Part shown: piece by piece, positions 2,720 to 25,497 of the stretch
Position numbering within the stretch: the first letter of the stretch is position 1
How the letters are laid out: each line of letters opens with the position of its first letter
Source of the DNA: DATDCY01 sp031406795 [NCBI: Candidatus Rokuibacteriota bacterium]
GTDB lineage: Bacteria; JAUVQV01
Reading direction: 5' to 3'
Assembly (NCBI GenBank): GCA_031406795.1
Contig: JANOHV010000093.1
Coordinates: 1 to 27,176 of the forward strand
DNA length: 27,176 nt
Position numbers and translations under genes: made by a program
The notes under the pieces: model-generated
The model's database searches: none
Seen by the model: only the letters and a program-made list of their open reading frames with translations
What the model was told of the DNA's origin: nothing

Positions 2720-3220
2720 ATGACGACTGCTGTCGAGGCTACGGAACCCGTCGCCTCAACGATCGAGGAGCGGCAACCGATACCGGTCGGCTGGGAGCCG
2801 AACGTCATCGCGTTCGCCTGCCATTACTGCGCTTTCGCGGCGGCGGATCTGGCGGGGGTGATGCGCCTCTCGTACCCGCCGAACGTCAAGGTGATCCGCC
2901 TGCCCTGCACCGGCAAGCTCGACCACATGCACCTGCTGCGGGCTTTCGAGAAGGGGGTCGACGGCGTTTTCGTCGCCGGCTGACTACGCGGACAATGCCA
3001 TTACCTGGAGGGTAATGCGTTCGCGGCGAGAAGGATCACGTACGTGAAGCAGCTTCTGGCGAAGCTCGGGATCGATCCGGAGCGCCTGGAGATGTACAAT
3101 CTTTCAGCGGCCATGGGGCCGCGCTGGGCGGAGATCTGCACGCAGTTCGTCGAAAAGATGCGGTCCTTCGGACCGACGCCGATCCATGCGGCGCAACTTC
3201 AACAGAAGTGTTCCTCATAG
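2720..3220 (+). CDS. mvhD: MvhD-type [2Fe-2S] electron-transfer subunit, selenoprotein (TGA at 2981-2983 read as Sec)
   Basis: MvhD carries a [2Fe-2S] cluster and passes electrons between a hydrogenase or other donor and HdrA. A conventional call stops at TGA 2981-2983 after 87 residues, inside a conserved motif. Reading through that TGA gives VAG-U-LRGQCHYLEGN and then the full family C-terminus (KLGIDPERLEMYNLSAAMGP, about 80 more residues) ending at TAG 3218-3220, 166 residues in total. Residue 88 aligns with the conserved Cys of the family motif AGCxxGxCHYxxGN. Other likely cluster cysteines are in ACHYC and LPCTGK. A SECIS-like hairpin lies directly downstream (2994-3021). AAGGAG at 2705-2710 precedes the ATG. 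Known context: Methanococcus VhuD, an MvhD homologue, is a selenoprotein. A nonsense mutation is the alternative, but frame and homology are uninterrupted after the TGA. Confidence 0.92.
2994..3021 (+). promoter_or_regulatory. Bacterial SECIS element for mvhD
   Basis: Starting 13 bases after the first base of the UGA is a stem-loop. CATTACC (2999-3005) pairs with GGTAATG (3011-3017) around the five-base loop TGGAG, and the stem extends downward through 2994-2997 and 3018-3021 with one bulged C. The apical loop, with G at its second and third positions, begins 25 bases after the first base of the UGA. That fits known bacterial SECIS elements, which lie inside the coding sequence and bind SelB. 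The structure was folded by eye, without an energy calculation. Confidence 0.82.
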
Positions 3221-3235
3221 GAATTGGAGTACCTC

Positions 3236-3388
3236 ATGACAGGGGCAGGTTGCTCAAAAGGGTCCAGGTGCAAGGCGCGCGAAATCCTGAGGAATGAGGC
3301 GTACGAGCAGTACGCCGCAGTGACGAGGGGTGAGTGCAACGCCGCAGATGGGCCGTTTTCGGCAACCTGCAGCGGGAGAGACGCATGA
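3236..3388 (+). CDS. Small four-cysteine protein coupled to metV (unrecognised)
   Basis: This is a 50-codon ORF lying between mvhD and metV. It starts at ATG 3236, preceded by TTGGAG at about the right spacing, and its TGA overlaps the metV start codon in an ATGA arrangement, as expected for translational coupling. The predicted protein has Cys at residues 6, 12, 34 and 45, a basic N-terminal third and a small central helix-like stretch (REILRNEAYEQYA). There is no signal peptide or membrane segment. I do not recognise a family. Four cysteines in an operon of iron-sulfur, zinc and flavin proteins suggest metal or cluster binding, but that is inference. It could instead be a chance ORF in a 164-base spacer. 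Confidence 0.5.
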   Translation: MTGAGCSKGSRCKAREILRNEAYEQYAAVTRGECNAADGPFSATCSGRDA

Positions 3389-4077
3389 TCGTCGGTACGC
3401 AGAAACCGTTCCCGGAACTCTGGGAGATGGTCCAAGGCTTCAAGAAGGTGCTGGTGCTCGGCTGCAACACCTGTGTCGCGATCTGCCACGCCGGCGGCGG
3501 CAAGGAGGCGGAAATCATCGCGACGATGCTGCGGATGAAGGCCACCGAAGCGGGCGTCGCGCTCGAGGCCGACCACGACGCGGTGCAGCGGCAGTGCGAG
3601 CCCGAGTACTTCGAGCCCCTGCTCGAACGGGCGCGCGGCTACGACCTGGTCATCTCGACGGCCTGCGGCGTCGGCGTGAACTTCCTGACGCAGCTCATCG
3701 GCAAGACGCCGGTCTACCCGGGGGTCAACACTTCGTTCTACGGCGCAGTGCCCAAGGCCGGGGTGTTCGTCGAACTCTGCGCGGGGTGCGGCAACTGCAT
3801 CCTGCATCTCACCGGGGGTATCTGCCCGATCGCGCGTTGCTCAAAATCGCTGATGAACGGCCCGTGCGGCGGCACCGACAAGGGCAAGTGCGAGGTCAGC
3901 AAGGACATCGATTGCGCCTGGTACCTGATCGTCGAGCGGATGAGGGAGCTCGGCACCCTGGACAAGCTCGGCGAGATCCAGCCGCCGCGCAACTGGGCGA
4001 CGGCCCGGGACGGCGGTCCCAGGCGCATCGTGCTCGAGCACATCGCGGATCTCGAAGAGACTGAGGCGAAGAAATGA
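3385..4077 (+). CDS. metV: MetV, methylene-tetrahydrofolate reductase C-terminal/accessory subunit
   Basis: MetV partners MetF in the methylene-THF reductase of the Wood-Ljungdahl pathway and carries iron-sulfur and zinc-binding cysteines. I chose ATG 3385 because GGGAG lies six bases upstream and the family begins MIV; an in-frame ATG at 3334 is an unlikely extension. The 230-residue product shows the cysteine-rich family pattern: LGCNTCVAICHAGG near residue 26, ACGVGVNF near 93, and ELCAGCGNCILHLTGGICPI followed by NGPCGG and GKCEVS in the second half. It overlaps the preceding small ORF by four bases and metF by four bases (ATGA at 4074), so the three are probably translated together. Length and domain layout look normal. 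Confidence 0.93.
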   Translation: MIVGTQKPFPELWEMVQGFKKVLVLGCNTCVAICHAGGGKEAEIIATMLRMKATEAGVALEADHDAVQRQCEPEYFEPLLERARGYDLVISTACGVGVNFLTQLIGKTPVYPGVNTSFYGAVPKAGVFVELCAGCGNCILHLTGGICPIARCSKSLMNGPCGGTDKGKCEVSKDIDCAWYLIVERMRELGTLDKLGEIQPPRNWATARDGGPRRIVLEHIADLEETEAKK

Positions 4078-5066
4078 CGACGACGATGAAAAGTGGCAGT
4101 AATCTGGAGAAAGTCCTGGCGAGCGGCCAGCCGGCCGTCACCGGCGAACTCGGGCCGCCGATGTCCGCCGACCCGGCTGAGGTCGTGCACAAGGCCCACG
4201 TGCTCAAGGGCTTCTGCGACGCCGCGAACATCACCGACTGCCAGACCGCGGTCGTACGCATCTCGAGCGTCGCGGCGGCCGTCATCGCGCAGCGCGAGGG
4301 ACTCGAACCGGTGATGCAGATGACCTGCCGCGACCGCAACCGCATCGCGATGCAGGCCGACCTGCTCGGCGCCTCGGCGCTCGGCGTCAAGAACTGCCTC
4401 TGCATCGCCGGCGACCACCAGTCCTTCGGCAAGGCCGGCAAGCTCCAGGGCCACCCCGGCGCGAAGAACGTCTACGACGTCGACACCGTCCAGCTGGTCG
4501 GCATCATGAAGAAGATGCGCGACGAGGGGCTGCAGCAGGGCGGCGACAAGCTCCAGGTCGCGCCGAAGTTCCTGATCGGCGCCTCCTGGACGCCGATGGG
4601 GGACCCGATGGACTTTCGGCCGGTCAATCTGAAGAAGAAGGTCGCCGCCGGCGCGGACTTCATCCAGACGCAGGGGATCTACGACGTCGAGCAGTTCCGC
4701 TCGCAGATGAAGAGGGCCGCCGACCTCGGGTGCTTCGAGCACACGGCGATGCTGGCCGGGATCATCGTCCCCAAGAGCGCGATGATGCTCAAGTACATGG
4801 ACGGCAACGTCTCCGGGATCACCGTGCCGCCGGCGCTGATCGCGCGCATGGCCAAGGCCAGGGAGGCCGCCGGCGACGACAAGAAGCAGATGAAGGAACT
4901 CCAGGAGGCCGAGGGGATCAAGATCGCCATCGAATTGATCAAGCAGGTCCTCGACATCCCGGGCGTCAAGGGAGTGCACGTCATGGCGATCGAGTGGGAG
5001 AGCGCACTGGAGCCGATCGTCAAGGGGGCCGGGCTCTTCCCGCGGCCGACTTTCGCGAACGCGTAG
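4074..5066 (+). CDS. metF: 5,10-methylenetetrahydrofolate reductase
   Basis: This is the FAD-dependent TIM-barrel enzyme that reduces methylene-THF to methyl-THF, 330 residues long. Recognisable elements are the N-terminal TGELGPPMSADP segment, the central QMTCRDRNR motif near residue 82, the following LGVKNCLCIAGDH strand and loop, and GADFIQTQGIYD near residue 193. The first two ATGs (4074 and 4086) are both possible starts; 4074 is preferred because it overlaps the metV stop. With MetV, MvhD and HdrA it forms the MetVF-Hdr type reductase known from acetogens such as Moorella, which could use NADH, hydrogen or ferredoxin through the Hdr/Mvh relay. A strong hairpin follows the stop. Confidence 0.95.
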   Translation: MTTTMKSGSNLEKVLASGQPAVTGELGPPMSADPAEVVHKAHVLKGFCDAANITDCQTAVVRISSVAAAVIAQREGLEPVMQMTCRDRNRIAMQADLLGASALGVKNCLCIAGDHQSFGKAGKLQGHPGAKNVYDVDTVQLVGIMKKMRDEGLQQGGDKLQVAPKFLIGASWTPMGDPMDFRPVNLKKKVAAGADFIQTQGIYDVEQFRSQMKRAADLGCFEHTAMLAGIIVPKSAMMLKYMDGNVSGITVPPALIARMAKAREAAGDDKKQMKELQEAEGIKIAIELIKQVLDIPGVKGVHVMAIEWESALEPIVKGAGLFPRPTFANA

Positions 5067-11395: not shown

Positions 11396-12727
11396 ATGAT
11401 CAAGTATGAAAGTCAGAAGGTCGCCCTGTACTACATCAAACTCTCGCTGCTGCTCCTGCCCCTGCAGGTGCTGATGGGGCTCTGGCTCGCCGTCAACTAC
11501 GGGTTCACGCTCCCCCAGGCCCTGATCGACGTCTTCTCCTTCGCCACCGCGCGCGCGCTGCACACGAACCTGCTCGTGGCCTGGCTGCTCCTCGGGTTCA
11601 TGGGCGGGACCTATTTCATTCTCCCCGAGGAGTGCGAGACCGAACTCTTCAGCGTCAAACTCGCCTGGTTGCAGCTGGTGCTCTTCGCCGGCGCGGCCGT
11701 GACCGCCGTCGTCGGCTTCCTGTTCGGCTGGACGCAGGGCAAGCCGCTGCTCGAGATCCCGGTCCCGCTGGATCTGGTGATCGTCGTCTCGGCGCTGATC
11801 TTCATCGCGAACGTCGTGCTGACCATCGTCAAGGCCAAGCAGCGCTCGCTGATCCAGTACATGCTCGCCGCGGGCGTCATCTTCCTCGCGCTGCTCTACC
11901 TGATCGGCATCCCCTTCTTCAAGAACCTGAACACCGACTACTACTACTGGTGGTGGGTGATCCACCTCTGGGTCGAGGGCGCCTGGGAGCTGATCACGGC
12001 GTCGATCGTCGCGTTCATCATCCTCAAGGCGACCGGCGTCGAGCGCAAGGTCGTCGAGAAGTGGCTCTATGTCGAGACCGGGCTCTTCCTGTTCACCGGG
12101 CTCGTCGGCACCGGGCACCACTACTACTGGATCGGCGCGCCGGACTACTGGCTCTGGTGGGGCGGGTTCTTCAGCGCCCTGGAGCCGCTGCCGATCGCGC
12201 TGATGGTCGCCGACACCTGGCTGCATGTGCGCGAGCGCAAGGACAAGACCGTGAACCCGCTGCTGTGGACCTACATCGTCGGCATGGCGATCTACCACTT
12301 CTTCGGCGCGGGCGTCTGGGGCTTCTTCCACACGCTGCCGCCGATCAACTACTACACCCACGGCAGCCAGATCACCGTGTCGCACGGGCACATGGCCTTC
12401 TTCGGCGCCTACGCGCTCGTGAACCTGACGATCTACTACTACGCCCTGCCGCAATTCAAGGGGATCAAGCGCTACAAGGAGACGCTGGGGCAGTGGGGCT
12501 TCTGGAACATGTGCCTCTCGATGTTCTTCCTCTGCCTGATCTTCCTGATCGCGGGCGTGCTCCAGACCTACCTCGAGCGCTTTCTCGACATCGGCTACAT
12601 GACCGCGCACAGCGTGATGATGTTCTGGTTCAAGATCGCGCTCGGTCTCGGCGTGTGGTTCTTCGCCGGGGTGCTGATGACGGTCTGGCACCTCTTCACG
12701 CTGAAGCCGGAGTTGGAGAAGGCTTAG
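11396..12727 (+). CDS. norB: Nitric oxide reductase large subunit (cNOR type)
   Basis: NorB reduces two NO to N2O at a haem b3-FeB centre in the cytoplasmic membrane. The 443-residue product has about 12 helices and every catalytic residue at a constant offset of 17 from Pseudomonas aeruginosa numbering as I recall it: His190 and Glu194 in HLWVEGAWE, His241 and His242 in GTGHHYYW, Glu263 in ALEPLPI, His330 and His332 in SHGHMAF. The low-spin haem ligand His56 lies in ALHTNLL. It lacks the N-terminal extension of quinol-dependent qNOR, and a cytochrome subunit is encoded just upstream, so it is the cNOR type. norD, norQ and norE are not nearby. Confidence 0.97.
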   Translation: MIKYESQKVALYYIKLSLLLLPLQVLMGLWLAVNYGFTLPQALIDVFSFATARALHTNLLVAWLLLGFMGGTYFILPEECETELFSVKLAWLQLVLFAGAAVTAVVGFLFGWTQGKPLLEIPVPLDLVIVVSALIFIANVVLTIVKAKQRSLIQYMLAAGVIFLALLYLIGIPFFKNLNTDYYYWWWVIHLWVEGAWELITASIVAFIILKATGVERKVVEKWLYVETGLFLFTGLVGTGHHYYWIGAPDYWLWWGGFFSALEPLPIALMVADTWLHVRERKDKTVNPLLWTYIVGMAIYHFFGAGVWGFFHTLPPINYYTHGSQITVSHGHMAFFGAYALVNLTIYYYALPQFKGIKRYKETLGQWGFWNMCLSMFFLCLIFLIAGVLQTYLERFLDIGYMTAHSVMMFWFKIALGLGVWFFAGVLMTVWHLFTLKPELEKA

Positions 12728-19045: not shown

Positions 19046-19927
19046 TCAAACATTGTCGCAATATTCTTCGCCGACCTGTGCGAGAACCGCTTCGGTCTCC
19101 ATGTCGCGGTCTTCGCCGAGCAGGCCGCAGGCATCTGAACGGCACTGTCGGCAGTGGTTGATGAGCGGCAGGTGCGGTCCGCAGCGCGTGCGCATGGCGT
19201 GGATCTGCGCTGGCGTCGGCGGCGCCACGCTGGCGAACTCCCCCTGCGCGATCAGCGGCGTGATGTTCATGACATTGACGCCGCAGGCCGCGGCGCGCGC
19301 GGCGATCAGCGGGATCTCGGTCTCGTTGACGCCGGGAACGAAGACACTGTTGACCTTGACGACGATGCCGGCCTCGTCCGCCCGTCGCAGTCCTTCCCAC
19401 TGGCGTTCGACCATCAGGCGCCCCGCGTCGTGGCCGAAGAAGGTGGTTCCGCCGTAGCGGGCCCAGCGGTAGATCTTCGCGGCGGTCTGCGGCAGAAGCG
19501 CGTTCACCGTGACGGTCAGCGTCAGCCGGTGCAGCCGCTTCAGTTCGTCGATGACCTCGGGGAGCATCAAGCCGTTCGTCGAGAGGCAGAGCGTGACCTC
19601 CGGGAACTCGGCGTCGACCATCCCGAGCACCTGGAGCGTCTCGGGGTTGGCCAGCGGGTCGCCGGGTCCGGCGACGCCGATCACGCCGAGACGGCCGTCG
19701 CGCTCGACGACCGCGCGGACCCGCTCCATTGCCTCCGCGGCGCCGAGCACCACCGAGGCCACGCCAGGTCGCGACTCGTTGACGCAGTCGAACTTGCGGA
19801 CGCAGTAGCGGCACTGGATGTTGCACTTGGGCGCCACCGGCAGGTGAATGCGTCCGTACTTGCGGTGCGCGCCGACATTAAAGCAGGGGTGTCGCTCGAT
19901 GACGCTCAGATCCTTGTGCACCGCCAT
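19046..19927 (-). CDS. nifB: NifB, radical SAM FeMo-cofactor (NifB-co) synthase, short form
   Basis: NifB fuses two 4Fe-4S clusters around a carbide to form the 8Fe core of FeMoco. I chose ATG 19927 because GGAG lies eight bases upstream; a frame extension to 19996 is basic and atypical. The 293 residues contain the N-terminal HPCF (13-16), the radical SAM motif CNIQCRYC (Cys35, 39, 42) followed by KFDC (Cys48), GVAGPGDPLANPETL, and the C-terminal CRQCRSDACGLLGED pattern. Azotobacter NifB is about 500 residues with a NifX-like C-terminal domain; this one lacks that domain, as in methanogens and many anaerobes. A separate nifX lies earlier in the operon. Confidence 0.96.
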   Translation of the reverse strand: MAVHKDLSVIERHPCFNVGAHRKYGRIHLPVAPKCNIQCRYCVRKFDCVNESRPGVASVVLGAAEAMERVRAVVERDGRLGVIGVAGPGDPLANPETLQVLGMVDAEFPEVTLCLSTNGLMLPEVIDELKRLHRLTLTVTVNALLPQTAAKIYRWARYGGTTFFGHDAGRLMVERQWEGLRRADEAGIVVKVNSVFVPGVNETEIPLIAARAAACGVNVMNITPLIAQGEFASVAPPTPAQIHAMRTRCGPHLPLINHCRQCRSDACGLLGEDRDMETEAVLAQVGEEYCDNV

Positions 19928-19958
19928 GACCCTTCTCCTTCGTCCCGGGCGCGTCGAA

Positions 19959-20243
19959 TTACGCCGCCGGCGCGTGCGTATAGCACTTCTTGGCACAGAT
20001 GCGCGCGCAGGCCTCGCAGCCGATGCAGTCGCCGCGGTCCTTCACGCTCATCACCTTGTTGCCCATGCGGTCGCCGAACTCGTCGTCATCGTCGCCTGCG
20101 AACGGCTTCTCCACGAGCGCGAGGACTGCGCGCCCGCAGGCCTTGTAGCACCGGCCGCAGCCGATGCAACGCTCGGGGTCGACGGAGACGACGAACCGCG
20201 GTGTCCATTCCCGTCCGCCACAGGTCACCGGCATTTCGTTCAC
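19959..20243 (-). CDS. fdxB: Nif-specific 2[4Fe-4S] ferredoxin (ferredoxin III type)
   Basis: This is a 94-residue ferredoxin with two clusters. The motifs are CIGCGRCYKAC (Cys26, 29, 32, 36) and CIGCEACARIC (Cys73, 76, 79, 83), with an extra Cys87. They are separated by an acidic insert (DDDDEFGDRM) typical of the nif-specific ferredoxin III family, as is the lead-in REWTPRFVVSVDPERC. GTG 20243 is chosen because AGGAG lies six bases upstream; an ATG three codons later is too far from it. It may deliver electrons to NifB or to nitrogenase reductase. It sits between nifI2 and nifB with small gaps. I use the symbol fdxB; some genomes call it fdxN. Confidence 0.88.
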   Translation of the reverse strand: MNEMPVTCGGREWTPRFVVSVDPERCIGCGRCYKACGRAVLALVEKPFAGDDDDEFGDRMGNKVMSVKDRGDCIGCEACARICAKKCYTHAPAA

Positions 20244-20256
20244 GGCGGCTCCTCTC

Positions 20257-20679
20257 CTAGGCGATAGCTGCGTCGCCGCGTTCGCCGGTGCGGATGCGCA
20301 CGGCGTCCTCGATCGGCAGCAGGAAGATCTTCCCGTCGCCGTAGCGGCCACTGCGGTTGATCCCGACCACGGTCTCGACGACCCGCTCTGCCGGGACCTC
20401 GGAGACCACGATGTCGAGCAGGCTTTTCGGGACCCAGCAGACCGGCTTGGTCAGCGTCGATGCGCCGGCCATGCTCGACGGGGTCGGGAATTTCCAGATC
20501 TTCGAGACCGACTCGATGTTGCCGCGCATCAGCGGGTCGACGACCTCCATGATGTTTCCGCCCTGCTTGCCGCGCCCGTGCACGGTGTGCACGGTGACCG
20601 AGTCGACGCCGACGCCCGAGAGCGCCTCGAGCGTCTCCTTGACTTTGTCCTGCCGGATGATGGCGAAGATCTCTCTCAC
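20257..20679 (-). CDS. nifI2: NifI2, PII-type nitrogenase regulator
   Basis: NifI2 forms a complex with NifI1 that binds the MoFe protein and blocks NifH access when ammonium is present; 2-oxoglutarate and ATP relieve this. The 140-residue product starts at GTG 20679, overlapping the nifI1 stop (GTGA). It shows the NifI2-type T-loop region, HGRGKQGGNIMEVVDPLMRG, rather than the GlnB pattern, an expanded middle segment (ASTLTKPVCWVPKSLLDIVVSEV), and the conserved GDGKIFLLP and [11 protein letters not shown] near the C-terminus. In most genomes nifI1-nifI2 lie between nifH and nifD; here they lie after nifX. Confidence 0.94.
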   Translation of the reverse strand: MREIFAIIRQDKVKETLEALSGVGVDSVTVHTVHGRGKQGGNIMEVVDPLMRGNIESVSKIWKFPTPSSMAGASTLTKPVCWVPKSLLDIVVSEVPAERVVETVVGINRSGRYGDGKIFLLPIEDAVRIRTGERGDAAIA

Positions 20680-20990
20680 AGCCCTGCCCCCGTGCGGACG
20701 GTGACGGCCTCGTCGATGGCGCTGACGAAGATCTTCCCGTCGCCGATGAAGCCGGTCTTCGAGACGTCGGTGATCACGCCGAGCACCTTGGTAACGTCGT
20801 CGTCGTTGACGACGAGCAGCAGCAGAATCTTTGCCAGCATGTCGTAGTGCACCGGGCCGACCTGCAGCCCCTTCTGCTTGCCGCGGCCGAAGACGTGGGC
20901 CTTGGTCATCGCCGGGAAACCCGCCCCTTCGAGGGCGAGGACGACATCGTGCTCCTTCTCGGGCCGGATGATTGCTCGGACCATCTTCAT
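20676..20990 (-). CDS. nifI1: NifI1, PII-type nitrogenase regulator
   Basis: This 104-residue PII-like protein is the partner of NifI2 in ammonium-induced switch-off of nitrogenase. It is recognised by the GRGKQKGLQVGPVHYDMLAK region replacing the usual T-loop start, by LLLVVNDDDVTKVLGVITDVSKTGFIGDGKIF, and by the shortened C-terminus (EAVTVRTGAGL). There is no uridylylation tyrosine in the loop, as expected for this class. Its ATG overlaps the nifX stop (ATGA), and its stop overlaps the nifI2 start. The nifX-nifI1-nifI2 overlaps imply coordinated translation. Confidence 0.94.
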   Translation of the reverse strand: MKMVRAIIRPEKEHDVVLALEGAGFPAMTKAHVFGRGKQKGLQVGPVHYDMLAKILLLLVVNDDDVTKVLGVITDVSKTGFIGDGKIFVSAIDEAVTVRTGAGL

Positions 20991-21418
20991 CGCGCTTCTC
21001 CTTTTGTTTCGTGCGTTGCGTTGGCATGCGGCTTCAAAGCGAGGCGGAGCCAGGGCGGCGGCGCCGTACGGATCTGTTCCATGAGGCGTTCGGCAGACTC
21101 GAGAATGACGGTCCGCTCGGGGACCTTGACCGGCATGATCCCCAGCCGGGCCATGCGGGCTGCGGCGGGGCCGCCGATCGCCGTCATGTAGACCAGGCGG
21201 CAGTCGCGGAGCCGCTCGACCTTCTGCACGATGGCGTTATCGTGCGCGTCGCCCTGGCCGCGCGTGCCCTCGACGGCCGCGTCCCGACCTTCGGCGAAAA
21301 CCAGATCCGGGAGCGGCGTGTAGCCCGCCATCGTGAAATCTAGGATCGCGAAGCGGCCGGCCCGGCCGAAGTGTTCATCGATCAGGCAGCCGTCCGTGGT
21401 CGCGAAAGCAACTTTCAT
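20987..21418 (-). CDS. nifX: NifX/NafY-family iron-molybdenum cofactor carrier
   Basis: This 143-residue protein has the dinitrogenase iron-molybdenum cofactor-binding fold: the opening VAFATTDGCLIDEHFGRAGRFAILDF, then the VERLRDCRLVYMTAIGGPAAARMARLGIMPVKV segment. NifX binds NifB-co or the VK cluster and shuttles it during FeMoco assembly on NifEN. The central region (AAVEGTRGQGDAHDNAIV) and the proline-rich C-terminus are less conserved. It overlaps nifEN by four bases (ATGA) and nifI1 by four. The exact paralogue (NifX, NafY or NifB-tail-like) cannot be settled from sequence alone, but nifEN adjacency favours NifX. Confidence 0.9.
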   Translation of the reverse strand: MKVAFATTDGCLIDEHFGRAGRFAILDFTMAGYTPLPDLVFAEGRDAAVEGTRGQGDAHDNAIVQKVERLRDCRLVYMTAIGGPAAARMARLGIMPVKVPERTVILESAERLMEQIRTAPPPWLRLALKPHANATHETKGEAR

Positions 21419-23991
21419 GGGGCACCTCCGTTCATGGCGTTGCCGATGTCGTTGACGAGGCCGAGGGTGCCCCGATAGCCGATATTGACGCGCTGGCAGT
21501 GACCGAGTCGCTCGAAGACCGGAAATCCCCAGACAAAATGTGCGGCATGCAGGTCGCGCGCCGGGAGCTCCCCGTGGGAGCCGGCAACGAGCAGGTCGAC
21601 GCCCTGTTCGAGAGTGGCGTAGTCGCCGACGTCGACGCGCCGCGCGTTGATGGTGCCCAGAGCGGGCGATCTTGTAGGAACGACCGCCTGGTTCACCATG
21701 GCGTTCATCTCCGCAAGCAGCCCGGCGATAGCGACCGCCGCATCTGTTTCCAGCGCGAGGGCCGCGCGCCGGCCGCCGAACGCGGTCATGGCATCGCGCA
21801 TGCAGTCGACAACGATTCGACGCTCTCGCAAGAAGCGCTGGGGGGTGGGGATCCCCCCGGCGCTCGCGAGTAGTTCGAAAAAGGCATCAACTGTGGCGAG
21901 GCCGATCGGGTAGGGCAGAACCTTGAACGGCACGCCGCAAGTCTGTTCCAGGTAGGCTGCGGCACCGGCGAGGCTCGCGCCGAGCGCAATCGTCAGGCCG
22001 GCGCTACCCATGGCGCGGATCGCGGCAAGCGGCGTGCCGCCCGAGGCGAGTGCGGAGTAATCACTGCGGCCGCCCTCGAGAGCCGAAAGATCAGGGAGGA
22101 TGGTCGCCGTCAGACCGAAGGCGTCGGCTATCGCGCGCAACTCACGGCAGTCTGCGGGAGTCAGGCCGGGGCCGGCGAGGATGTTCACGCGCCGTTCGTG
22201 CCGGCTGCCTGGGGTTGCCAGTCCCACCAACGCCTTGACCGCGGCGGCGAATCCCTCCTCAAGGCCTCCCGTGTAGTCAGGCGTCGAGATGGGGAGTATG
22301 ACGGCCGATCCCGTGTCGATCCCGCGTAACGCGGAAACCGGCTCGTCCCCCTTGACCTCGGAGAGGCCGGAGGAGAGCGTGGCGACAAGGTCGGGCTTCT
22401 GATTTTCGAGCGCGCTGCGCACCGCGGCGGCGAGCAACTCCGGACCGCCGAGCACGAGGTCCTCCGAAAAGACTTTCGTCGATACAAGCGCGATCGGCTC
22501 GTGGAAGTGCTTCGTCAGCAGCACTTTCCCGAGAAAGGAGCAGCCTTGTGCGCCGTTGTGGACGACGGCGGCACGGTCGACGCCCTGCAGCGCCATCGCG
22601 GCACCGATGGCGGGCGAGTGGCGCAGCGGGTTGGTGCTCAGGGAGCGCTTGGATGCAGGGGTCACCCGCGGGGCGGGGGCTGCGACGCCCTCGCGGCCGA
22701 TGCGGTAGAACTCGATCGCCTCGGTCATCCGCTGGGCAAGGTTCACGAGGCCTTCGTATCCGGCATACGCCGTGTGCCGCTCCTGGTTGGCATCGATGAA
22801 GGGGAAGCCCTCCTTGATCGCCAGGTACTGATTACGGCCGCCGGCGACCAGAATGTCCGCGCCGCTCTCGGCCATCAGGGTGCGGATCTTCGCCGGCGAC
22901 ATGTTTTCGTGCAGCGGGGCGTCGGGTCCGAGGATCGCGCGCATCTTCTGCTCGTCCTCGTACGTGGCCTTCTTCGTGCCGACCGCGGCCAAGCTCAGTC
23001 CCAGGTCCTGGAGCGCGGAGATGAATGACCAGCTCTTGACGCCGCCGGTGTAAAGGACAGCCTTCTTTCCCGTCAGCGCGGCGTAGGGAGCAAGACGCTC
23101 GGCGAGGCGGTCCTCCTCCTCGCCGATGAGCGCCTCGACGCGGGCCGGCAGCAATGGGTCGCGCGAAACGAGAGCGGCGGCCATCGCTCGCAACGATCGG
23201 GCGATCTGCGTGCGGCCGAAGAAGGAGGCCTCGACGTACGGGACGCCCCAGCGCCGCTGCATCCCGCGAGCGACGTTGATCAGTGCCCGGCCGCAGACGA
23301 CAACATTCAGATGTGCCCGGTGCGCGCCGCGGATCTCCTCGAAGGCGGCGTTGCCGGTGAGCCGGGCGTGGACGGTGATGCCCGCGCGCTCGAGCAGCGG
23401 CTCGATGAGGTCCTGATCGCCGGCAATGTTGTACTCGCCGACCAGGTTCACCGCGAGCGGTGCGACGGCGTCCGGTTCGGCCGTCCCGATCACGCGCTCG
23501 AGAAGCACCTCCCCGGCCATGCGGTTGCCGAGGTTCTTCGGACCGACAAAGCCCGGCGCGTCAACCGGGAGCACCGGGAGCCCCAGCTCGGCTTCGGCCT
23601 CGCGGCAGGCGGCGTGGATGTCCTCGCCGATCATGCCGGTGACGCAGGTTGCATAGACGAAGATCGCCCGCGGGCGGGCATCGCGCGCCGTCTCACGAAT
23701 CGCTGCGCGCAGCTTTGCGGCCGCGCCGTAGACGATGTCCAGCTCCGAAAGGTCGGTCGTGTACGCCCGGCGGTGCAGTTCGCCCTTGGTCGTGCGTGTC
23801 CCGCGCGACTCCCAGGAGTTGCCGAGGCAGGCGATCGGGCCGTGCACCAGGTGTGCGGCATCCGCAATGCAGCCGAGCACGATCATCGCGCCGTCGAACG
23901 CGCACGACTCCCCCCCGCGCTGGCGGCAGACGCCGTTCATGGCGTCCGGCCGGCACGCGTCGGTAAACAATCGCTCCGTGGTGGCGGTCAT
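21415..23991 (-). CDS. nifEN: Fused NifE-NifN, FeMo-cofactor assembly scaffold
   Basis: The 858-residue protein joins NifE (residues 1 to about 440) and NifN (about 450 to the end) in one chain. NifEN is the scaffold on which NifB-co matures before transfer to NifDK. The NifE half has ESCAFDGAMIVLG (Cys30), HGPIACLGNSWESRG (Cys55) and YATCVTGMIGEDI (Cys116), equivalent to the cluster-ligating Cys37, 62 and 124 of Azotobacter NifE. The linker is short (GVAAPAPRVTPASKR). The NifN half begins STNPLRHSPAIGAAMALQG, has HNGAQGCSFLGKVLLTKHFHEPI, and ends with ERLGHCQRVNIGYRGTLGLVNDIGNAM. The gene starts 30 bases after nifK and overlaps nifX. Fused NifEN or VnfEN proteins are known in some cyanobacteria, so the fusion is uncommon rather than new. 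Confidence 0.94.
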   Translation of the reverse strand: MTATTERLFTDACRPDAMNGVCRQRGGESCAFDGAMIVLGCIADAAHLVHGPIACLGNSWESRGTRTTKGELHRRAYTTDLSELDIVYGAAAKLRAAIRETARDARPRAIFVYATCVTGMIGEDIHAACREAEAELGLPVLPVDAPGFVGPKNLGNRMAGEVLLERVIGTAEPDAVAPLAVNLVGEYNIAGDQDLIEPLLERAGITVHARLTGNAAFEEIRGAHRAHLNVVVCGRALINVARGMQRRWGVPYVEASFFGRTQIARSLRAMAAALVSRDPLLPARVEALIGEEEDRLAERLAPYAALTGKKAVLYTGGVKSWSFISALQDLGLSLAAVGTKKATYEDEQKMRAILGPDAPLHENMSPAKIRTLMAESGADILVAGGRNQYLAIKEGFPFIDANQERHTAYAGYEGLVNLAQRMTEAIEFYRIGREGVAAPAPRVTPASKRSLSTNPLRHSPAIGAAMALQGVDRAAVVHNGAQGCSFLGKVLLTKHFHEPIALVSTKVFSEDLVLGGPELLAAAVRSALENQKPDLVATLSSGLSEVKGDEPVSALRGIDTGSAVILPISTPDYTGGLEEGFAAAVKALVGLATPGSRHERRVNILAGPGLTPADCRELRAIADAFGLTATILPDLSALEGGRSDYSALASGGTPLAAIRAMGSAGLTIALGASLAGAAAYLEQTCGVPFKVLPYPIGLATVDAFFELLASAGGIPTPQRFLRERRIVVDCMRDAMTAFGGRRAALALETDAAVAIAGLLAEMNAMVNQAVVPTRSPALGTINARRVDVGDYATLEQGVDLLVAGSHGELPARDLHAAHFVWGFPVFERLGHCQRVNIGYRGTLGLVNDIGNAMNGGAP

Positions 23992-24021
23992 GATCGTGTT
24001 GTCCTGTCGCGTCTTCGTTCG

Positions 24022-25452
24022 TCAGCGCAGCAATTCGAAATGCGCGTCGTCGCAGGTGCGGTCGACCTGCTCGATCAGCGCGTTGGCGATCCAGGTGATC
24101 AGGTTGATCGTCCCGCGGTAGCCGATCGTCGCATAGCGGTGCAGGTTCACCCGATCGACAATCGGGAAGCCGATGCGCACGTGCGGGATGCCGGCATCGC
24201 GTGCCGCGTACTTGCCGTGGCTGTTGCCGATCAGCAGGTCCACCGGCTCGGTCATCAGCAGCGAGCGCAGGTGCCAGAGGTCGCGGCCGGCGTGCACCTG
24301 GCCTTCCGTGCCGAACGGCGAGGAGGCGAGCAGCGCCTGCATCTGGGCCGCCCACTTCTTCGTCCCGTTCGTCGAGACGATGTGTACCGGTTCGGCGCCC
24401 ATCTCGAGGAGAAAGCTCACGAGGCCGAGCAGCGGGTCGGGATCGCCGAAGAGGGAGATGCGCTTGCCGTGGAAGTAGGGGTGGGCGTCGGTCGCGGCAT
24501 CGACCGCGCGGCCGCGCTCGGCCCGGATTGCTGCCGGTATCGGGCGCCCGGACATCTCGGAGAGCGTGGTGAGGAACCCGTCGAATGCGCCGATGCCCAT
24601 CGGGGAGTGGAAAGCCTTCGTCTTCTGCCCCCACGTGCCTGAGAAGGCGGCGAGCGTCTTGGTCGTCGCGTAGGCCTGCAGCGAGATCGTCGCCGCGGCG
24701 TTGACGCACTCGGCGGTTTCTTCGAGAGTCGTGCCGCCGTGATACATCGTGTACTCCCCGGAGAGCGGCGAGTCGAAGGACTCGCTGTTGTCGGCGAGCA
24801 CCGTGACCGGGGCGCCCATCAGCGCGGCATAGCGGCGCAGTTCGCGGATGTTCTCCACGTGGGGGTCGAAGCCGGGAATGAGGTTCACTGTTGCCGTGCG
24901 CTCGCCCTCGCGGTACTGCCCGGCGGAAAGCGCCTCGACGATGCCGAGCAGCATGCTGTCGTAGCCGGTGATGTGCGAACCGATGAAGCTCGGCGTGTGC
25001 GCGAGCGCCACCGGGAAACCCTTCGGCACCGATCCGGCTTCGCGCGCTCCGTCGAGGAAGGCCTTGAGATCGTCGCCGATGACCTCCGCCATGCACGAGG
25101 TGCAGACCGCGATCATCGCGGGCTTGTAGATGTCGTGGGCGTTCTTCAGCCCCTCGACCATGTTCGCGCGCCCGCCGAAGACCGCCGCATCCTCGGTCAT
25201 CGAGTCGGAGACCGCGGGAAACGGCTCGCGGTAGTGCCGCGAGAGGTTGTTCCGGAAATACGCCGTGCAGCCCTGCGAGCCATGCTCGTAGGGGAGCGTT
25301 CCCTCGAAACCGGCCGCCGCGAAGAAGGCGCCGAGGGGCTGGCAGGCCTTCGTCGGGTTGATCACCAGGGCCTTGCGCGCGAAGTTCAGGTCCTTGTACT
25401 CGACGGTGTTGATCCACGCCGCCGTTGCCATCGTCGTGCTTACGTCGCTCAT
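24022..25452 (-). CDS. nifK: Nitrogenase MoFe protein beta subunit
   Basis: This is the beta chain of dinitrogenase, which holds the P-cluster with NifD. ATG 25452 is chosen because AAGGAGGG lies six bases upstream; a few extra in-frame codons to 25479 are excluded. The 476-residue product has all P-cluster ligands at a constant offset of 33 from Azotobacter: Cys37 (KACQPLGA), Cys62 (HGSQGCTAYFR), Cys120 (CTSCMAEVIGDD) and Ser155 (TPSFIG). SDSMTEDAAVFGG and RIGFPIVDR are also intact. The N-terminus is shorter than in Azotobacter, as in group II enzymes. It is the first gene of its operon, with its own sigma-54 promoter, and nifH and nifD do not precede it. A broken nifD tail lies about 0.9 kb upstream. 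The protein looks functional. Confidence 0.97.
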   Translation of the reverse strand: MSDVSTTMATAAWINTVEYKDLNFARKALVINPTKACQPLGAFFAAAGFEGTLPYEHGSQGCTAYFRNNLSRHYREPFPAVSDSMTEDAAVFGGRANMVEGLKNAHDIYKPAMIAVCTSCMAEVIGDDLKAFLDGAREAGSVPKGFPVALAHTPSFIGSHITGYDSMLLGIVEALSAGQYREGERTATVNLIPGFDPHVENIRELRRYAALMGAPVTVLADNSESFDSPLSGEYTMYHGGTTLEETAECVNAAATISLQAYATTKTLAAFSGTWGQKTKAFHSPMGIGAFDGFLTTLSEMSGRPIPAAIRAERGRAVDAATDAHPYFHGKRISLFGDPDPLLGLVSFLLEMGAEPVHIVSTNGTKKWAAQMQALLASSPFGTEGQVHAGRDLWHLRSLLMTEPVDLLIGNSHGKYAARDAGIPHVRIGFPIVDRVNLHRYATIGYRGTINLITWIANALIEQVDRTCDDAHFELLR

Positions 25453-25497
25453 CTCGAATCCCTCCTTGCGGGGTTGCATTCCGTTGTCACCGCAATC

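Follow-up and report, generated by a model that had tools for sequence, protein, structure and literature searches.

Results

The window analyzed here comprises 27,176 nt (positions 1–27,176 of contig JANOHV010000093.1, assembly GCA_031406795.1, Candidatus Rokuibacteriota bacterium), in which hdrA, mvhD, metV and metF lie adjacent to each other, all on the plus strand. hdrA is represented by its 3' part (1–2292), the 5' end being located beyond the window; it ends with TGA as an ordinary stop codon and scores 574 bits against NF040770, i.e. under the cut-off of 1100, as expected because only a part of the gene is in the window. The gap of 427 nt between hdrA and mvhD (2293–2719) contains two long imperfect inverted repeats (2314–2341/2361–2388 and 2470–2499/2635–2664), with arms of 28 and 30 nt, respectively; in L004, one of the related loci described below, the hdrA–mvhD gap has a length of ~160 nt. 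AAGGAG at 2705–2710 was assigned by eye as the likely ribosome-binding site of mvhD. The mvhD gene itself (2720–3220), a member of the FlpD family, is followed by metV (3385–4077), which encodes the partner of MetF (PF12225, E-value 7.2e-36 for the frame read from 3334; start codon assigned by eye), and by metF (4074–5066), which encodes methylene-tetrahydrofolate reductase (PF02219, E-value 5.2e-34).

The reading frame of mvhD starts with ATG at 2720, ends with TAG at 3218–3220, and contains an in-frame TGA codon at 2981–2983, in the context VAG-*-LRGQCHYLEGN, after which 78 more residues follow. The mechanical listing of open reading frames reports mvhD as 2720–2983, with the end at residue 87, and a standard annotation would therefore cut it short. 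If the TGA is read as selenocysteine (Sec), the product is 166 residues long and has Sec as residue 88, as well as the conserved Cys34, Cys37, Cys63 and Cys93. The read-through sequence matches PF02662 along the whole profile (E-value 3.4e-47, 159.9 bits with a cut-off of 22.3, profile positions 1–123 of 123), as well as six distinct MvhD-like sequences with solved structures, including 7bkb_F (E-value 1.5e-39) and 5odc_D (E-value 4.7e-35).

The search of a genome-contig collection yielded 113 confirmed relatives, and the best 80 were taken for all locus counts. TGA was given no advantage in this search, because residue 88 was left out of the search patterns and U was handled as Cys. The codon aligned with the TGA of the window is TGA in 80/80 loci (best 80 of 113). 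The corresponding records carry labels such as Nitrospirota, Desulfobacterota or Deltaproteobacteria, and represent mostly metagenome bins and a few isolates; among the named isolates with the TGA-containing mvhD are Desulfopila aestuarii DSM 18488 (L076) and Desulfoprunum benzoelyticum DSM 28570 (L058). In addition, 395 Nitrospirota genomes were searched, and 118 of them gave a match with an E-value no higher than 1e-20. TGA is present in all of the 26 best-scoring matches, each from a different genome (at least 245 bits, 67–77% identity), and is found at position 88 in 26/26 of their loci; the next match scores 149 bits. Among the lower matches listed, most are without TGA and seven possess one.

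Among 57 FlpD loci, taken from the search of the Nitrospirota genomes and from that of the G007 class described below, position 88 is occupied by TGA in 30 (which include four genomes twice) and by Cys in 26, and one partial row stops short of it. Positions 34, 63, 88 and 93 are Cys, with TGA possible at position 88, in 56/56 covering rows, some of which repeat a genome, while position 37 is variable in pairwise alignments (Cys, Asp, His, Ala or gap). The residue aligned with position 88 is Cys also in the PDB homologues 7bkb_F, 5odc_D, 8rvu_F, 8rvv_F and 9sw2_D. An earlier note, made from the letters of this DNA, had placed the TGA at the codon of a conserved cysteine and had let the frame run on for about 78 residues to TAG 3220. 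Both statements are borne out, the former by the Cys of the FlpD homologues without TGA and by the alignment with MvhD homologues that the note had proposed as a check, in which every covering row has Cys or TGA at position 88, and the latter by the count of 78 residues and by the match along the whole length of PF02662. The codons that follow the TGA are under purifying selection, with mean pN/pS against the window of 0.28 for codons 1–14 and 0.30 for codons 15–66; for the 62 codons before the TGA the mean value is 0.12 (80 comparisons against the window).

The neighborhood of mvhD is conserved as well. Among the best 80 of 113 relatives, HdrA is encoded at most 1.5 kb upstream of the TGA-containing mvhD in 80/80 loci, metV was found downstream in 79/80 and metF in 72/80, and all three genes were seen around mvhD in 72/80. 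In the 8 loci without all three genes, the contig ends less than 2 kb from the TGA in 6 cases, and does not in L031 and L039. Upstream of hdrA, L004 possesses an ORF with the Fe-S dicluster (HdrC-like) and an ORF with the CCG domain (HdrB-like); in L002 the dicluster ORF upstream of hdrA was confirmed by a scan, and the HdrB-like ORF was identified by eye only. A small ORF between mvhD and metV (3236–3388) was considered as a gene and rejected: its best E-value among the 80 loci was 0.67, i.e. it has no significant relative.

The remaining part of the window encodes functions of other types. The region 19046–25479 contains nitrogenase genes on the minus strand, including nifK (24022–25479) and a fused nifE–nifN (21415–23991), both halves of which score above the cut-offs, together with a nifX-like ORF (20987–21418) and a nifB-like ORF (19046–19996), also on the minus strand and both below the cut-offs. 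Close to the nitrogenase genes, the window also encodes an ammonium transporter and a P-II protein. A gene for a COX1-type oxidase subunit (11396–12727) is located ~6 kb from metF, beside the otherwise anaerobe-type cluster.

The window DNA between 4074 and 7655 is matched by all 14 genomes of a class that we refer to as the G007 class, with 75–84% identity in the best stretches. The TGA-type mvhD is present in 4/14 genomes of this class (G001, G004, G007 and G039). In 8/14 (G030–G033 and G035–G038; loci L113 and L119–L125), the FlpD domain encoded at most 4 kb from metF belongs to a protein that looks GltD-like by eye, and has Cys at the position of Sec. Such an arrangement suggests that the electron-input module for MetF may have been swapped.

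The genes for selenocysteine insertion were surveyed in 29 genomes that carry loci (within the best 80) taken as Nitrospirota, with 30 genomes in the case of SelD. SelB scores above the curated cut-off in 26/29 of these relatives' genomes, SelA in 27/29 and SelD in 29/30, while a tRNA-Sec match above the gathering score is present in 25/29, including G016, which has only a gene with the GCA anticodon. Matches above the cut-off are absent for SelA in G018, for full SelB in G011 and G024, and for SelD in G012; among the 29 genomes searched, the tRNA-Sec match above the gathering score is absent from G001, G003, G011 and G019. G016 has the TGA-containing mvhD and SelD, neither SelA nor SelB above the cut-off (the completeness of this genome is not stated), and a single tRNA-Sec match above the gathering score, identified as tRNA-Cys (GCA). 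Within the G007 class, SelA is above the cut-off in 11/14 genomes, and all four genomes with the TGA-type mvhD possess SelA, SelB and SelD above the cut-offs; three of these four were searched for tRNA-Sec, which scores above the gathering threshold in G004 and G007 and not in G001. The survey also revealed an in-frame TGA within selD in 28/30 genomes, which makes the selenophosphate synthetase itself a selenoprotein candidate there, and several selB matches above the cut-off per genome (two in G028, three in G025 and two in G039).

A hairpin is predicted at 3000–3016 of the plus strand, 17–33 nt downstream of the UGA, with the stem ATTACCT/GGGTAAT (3000–3006 with 3010–3016) and the apical loop GGA (3007–3009). 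Each of the seven stem pairs is kept in 78–81 of 81 sequences (the window and the best 80 of 113 relatives), and one of them (+20/+30) switches between A-U, found in 30 sequences, and U-A, found in 51. A lower extension of the stem (+16/+34 and +15/+35) was dropped, as these pairs are kept in only 7 and 2 of the 81 sequences, respectively. The fold of 50 nt has a minimum free energy of -18.3 kcal/mol (z -2.42), with 4/200 dinucleotide shuffles equally good, which is a moderate result, and resampling of synonymous codons gave p of 0.085 for the window and p of at most 0.05 for 8/81 sequences, with a mean z of -0.66. Folding energy alone is weak evidence for the hairpin, and not convincing.

The decisive evidence for a SECIS element comes from the conservation of codons across species rather than from energy. 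Codon variation was analyzed in the 81 sequences from 64 codons before to 67 codons after the TGA, for the 63 columns with the same residue in at least 95% of sequences and more than one possible codon. The four least codon-variable of these columns are all in or at the hairpin, namely His94 (CAT in 81/81), Leu96 (CTG in 81/81), Asn99 (AAT in 80/81) and Glu97 (GAA in 74 and GAG in 3). In addition, the codons of residue 95 and Gly98 are coupled: Tyr TAC occurs with GGT in 30/30 cases and Phe TTC with GGA in 51/51, hence the stem stays paired because the codon swap at residue 95 is matched by a synonymous change of Gly98 on the opposite side. On the MvhD tree, which was built without the hairpin codons (123 columns, many unresolved forks), the TAC/TTC switch requires about 2 changes, a single one of which is forced, therefore the +20/+30 exchange cannot be counted as many events. 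In the window, whose G+C content is 65%, the hairpin uses CAT, GGT and AAT, although in three other genes of the window these codons account for 2/27 His, 3/143 Gly and 4/54 Asn, respectively.

Bacterial SECIS elements are located just downstream of the UGA codon, inside the coding region, and have a G in the apical loop. The mvhD hairpin agrees with this placement in that it lies downstream of the UGA, within the coding sequence, with G in the apical loop, and the frozen codons make its prediction as a bacterial SECIS convincing. No SECIS family is claimed from Rfam, as no match was found in the window at the gathering thresholds. The earlier note's proposal of a SECIS-like hairpin with a G-containing loop at the expected place is thus upheld, with the GGA loop and the frozen codons at 3000–3016; as for the folding of the sequence downstream of the TGA, which the note had suggested as a check, a hairpin does appear 17–33 nt on, and its energy is only moderate. 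The note's central claim, of mvhD as a selenoprotein gene liable to be cut short by annotation, is supported by the TGA in the best 80 of 113 relatives, by the codon-frozen hairpin, and by the Sec machinery in most relatives. As for its suggestion that selenium may tune the electron relay, what the sequence shows is Sec88 at one of the four invariant Cys positions of FlpD.

Discussion

We regard it as very probable (roughly 0.94) that the gene at 2720–3220 encodes a selenocysteine form of MvhD, a small [2Fe-2S] protein predicted to hand electrons to HdrA, in a cluster of the hdrA–mvhD–metV–metF type, which the analysis ascribes most likely to an uncultured bacterium of Nitrospirota. According to the proposed mechanism, SelB with Sec-tRNA(Sec) would bind the hairpin 17–33 nt past the UGA at 2981–2983, Sec would be inserted at residue 88, and the ribosome would go on to the TAG at 3218–3220. 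Sec88 would then stand in place of the Cys of other FlpD proteins, and the [2Fe-2S] cluster with Sec88 would pass electrons to HdrA and, beyond it, to the methylene-tetrahydrofolate reductase MetVF. Four ligands hold a [2Fe-2S] cluster, and Sec88 occupies one of the four Cys positions (34, 63, 88 and 93) that are invariant in the FlpD sequences compared, thus it is probably one of these ligands. Sec insertion in the window's own organism, as well as the direction and the partners of the electron flow, are what we infer from the sequence.

Could the UGA of mvhD be decoded wholly or partly as Cys, by a selC* tRNA-Cys, when selenium is short? A selC*-type tRNA-Cys can put Cys at UGA with the help of SelB, so where such a tRNA is present, the mvhD UGA could be read as Cys by a part of the ribosomes. 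Among ten tRNA-Sec-like matches chosen for the analysis with ARAGORN, six turned out to be tRNA-Cys with the GCA anticodon, and four were tRNA-Sec. The tRNA-Sec-like genes with the Cys anticodon (L091–L096) belong to five Nitrospirota genomes (G025, at two places, G028, G002, G023 and G016), and those in L091–L095 end in T before CCA. In both copies of G025 and in G028 (L091, L092 and L093) selB follows directly after the GCA tRNA, while in G002 (L094), whose MvhD is the nearest to that of the window by tree path, the tRNA precedes yedF, a selenium gene. According to the available text of PMC7609411, selC* tRNA-Cys has been described in Nitrospirae, with selB* adjoining in two deltaproteobacterial groups. 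On the other hand, all five genomes with the GCA tRNA carry the TGA-containing mvhD, and four of them (not G016) possess SelA above the cut-off and a higher-scoring tRNA-Sec match. We therefore consider the decoding as Cys unlikely. Also unlikely is a more elaborate variant, in which the mvhD UGA of Nitrospirota would be a selenium-responsive dual codon, read as Sec by tRNA-Sec and SelB in the presence of selenium, and as Cys by the selC* tRNA-Cys (and its partner selB, where present) in its absence. If this were true, the [2Fe-2S] relay into HdrA–MetVF would have a selenolate or a thiolate ligand, and the potential for the reduction of methylene-THF would thus have two settings.

Or perhaps the TGA is a true stop codon, which separates two proteins or marks a decayed gene? 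The mechanically called ORF does stop there, and candidate start codons are available in frame within the first 150 nt downstream (GTG at 3044, ATG at 3092 and ATG at 3113). However, the stretch from the TGA to the conserved Cys93 contains no in-frame start codon, the TGA is present in the best 80 of 113 relatives with the sequence conserved on both sides, the codons that follow it are under purifying selection, and the frozen codons of the hairpin would serve no purpose, all of which makes a true stop highly improbable. A sequencing or assembly error is a negligible option, since although in the source record the TGA rests on a single window, it recurs at the same codon in 80 other contigs, including those of the isolates L076 and L058. 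Hardly any weight can be given either to a global reassignment of UGA, e.g. to Trp or Gly: it would account for an in-frame UGA in a coding gene, but hdrA of the window stops at a TGA in place of the TAA or TAG of the four relatives checked, the stop codon of metV is a TGA overlapping the metF start, and the FlpD homologues without TGA have Cys at this position.

The reading of mvhD as a selenoprotein gene has precedents, as selenoproteins of this kind have been found before in sulfate reducers and methanogens, and for bacteria Sec-MvhD has been in print since 2009: the available part of PMC2702500 describes selenoproteins encoded by mvhD1, 2, 3 and 5 in Desulfobacterium autotrophicum HRM2, beside hdrA or hdrL. 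These bacterial MvhD selenoproteins resemble that of the window in adjoining hdrA/hdrL, and differ in the phylum and in that the same part of PMC2702500 does not tie them to metF or metV. A metagenome-assembled genome assigned to Desulforapulum autotrophicum, which is the present name of Desulfobacterium autotrophicum (L070), has hdrA, metV and metF around a TGA-containing mvhD, and its MvhD exhibits 61% protein identity to that of the window. In mvhD of Desulfococcus multivorans, according to the available text of PMC5109826, the UGA is located upstream of a SECIS element; here the likeness to the window lies in the combination of UGA and SECIS, and the difference again in the phylum. A 2026 review (PMC13188914), in its available part, lists MvhD/VhuD among the prokaryotic selenoprotein families, and gives for the VhuD/FrhD family the motif CxxU and the figure 2, which is probably the number of Sec residues.

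The archaeal VhuD/FrhD proteins (Methanococcales and Asgard archaea) are likewise FlpD selenoproteins with electrons going to HdrA. The solved chain 9sfi_K has the non-standard residue X at two positions, one of them at the aligned position 88, and we infer that this X is Sec. In contrast to the archaeal proteins, with the CxxU motif (as far as the available text of the review goes) and X twice in 9sfi_K, MvhD of the window keeps Cys37 and would have Sec at position 88 only. The location of the SECIS element differs as well, as in Asgard and methanococcal archaea it was sought in the 3' UTR (PMC11227280, available part), whereas in mvhD of the window it is predicted inside the coding sequence. 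For methanogens, the available text of PMC6019823 describes electron transfer from the [2Fe-2S] cluster of MvhD to the HdrA flavin.

With respect to the arrangement of genes, the closest description is that of the Hdr-type MetVF of Moorella thermoacetica and Sporomusa ovata, where hdrCBA and mvhD are located upstream of metVF, and pull-downs with S. ovata show an interaction of MvhD with HdrA, HdrB and MetF (PMC9430772, available part). The likeness to the window, drawn from the published descriptions, concerns the order hdrA–mvhD–metV–metF, and the difference is that the main text of PMC9430772 is without any word that begins with 'selen'. Similarly, the available text of PMC11328732 and PMC5039349 mentions selenocysteine of Moorella for formate dehydrogenase, and mentions mvhD without it. 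The open-licence literature, in so far as its text was available, gave no account of a Sec-MvhD encoded together with metVF, or of one from Nitrospirota, which is a weak kind of absence.

Conclusions

The predicted Sec form of MvhD, encoded in every one of the best 80 of 113 relatives, in Nitrospirota as well as in lineages of sulfate reducers, corrects how a subunit for electron transfer, split in two by mechanical ORF calling, is annotated in uncultured bacteria that possess the MetVF-type enzyme of the methyl branch. If Sec88 is indeed a ligand, as its position among the invariant cysteines suggests, the family would provide a natural system for the study of a selenolate-ligated [2Fe-2S] cluster. 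The same gene is present in some cultured sulfate reducers, in which these predictions may be tested.
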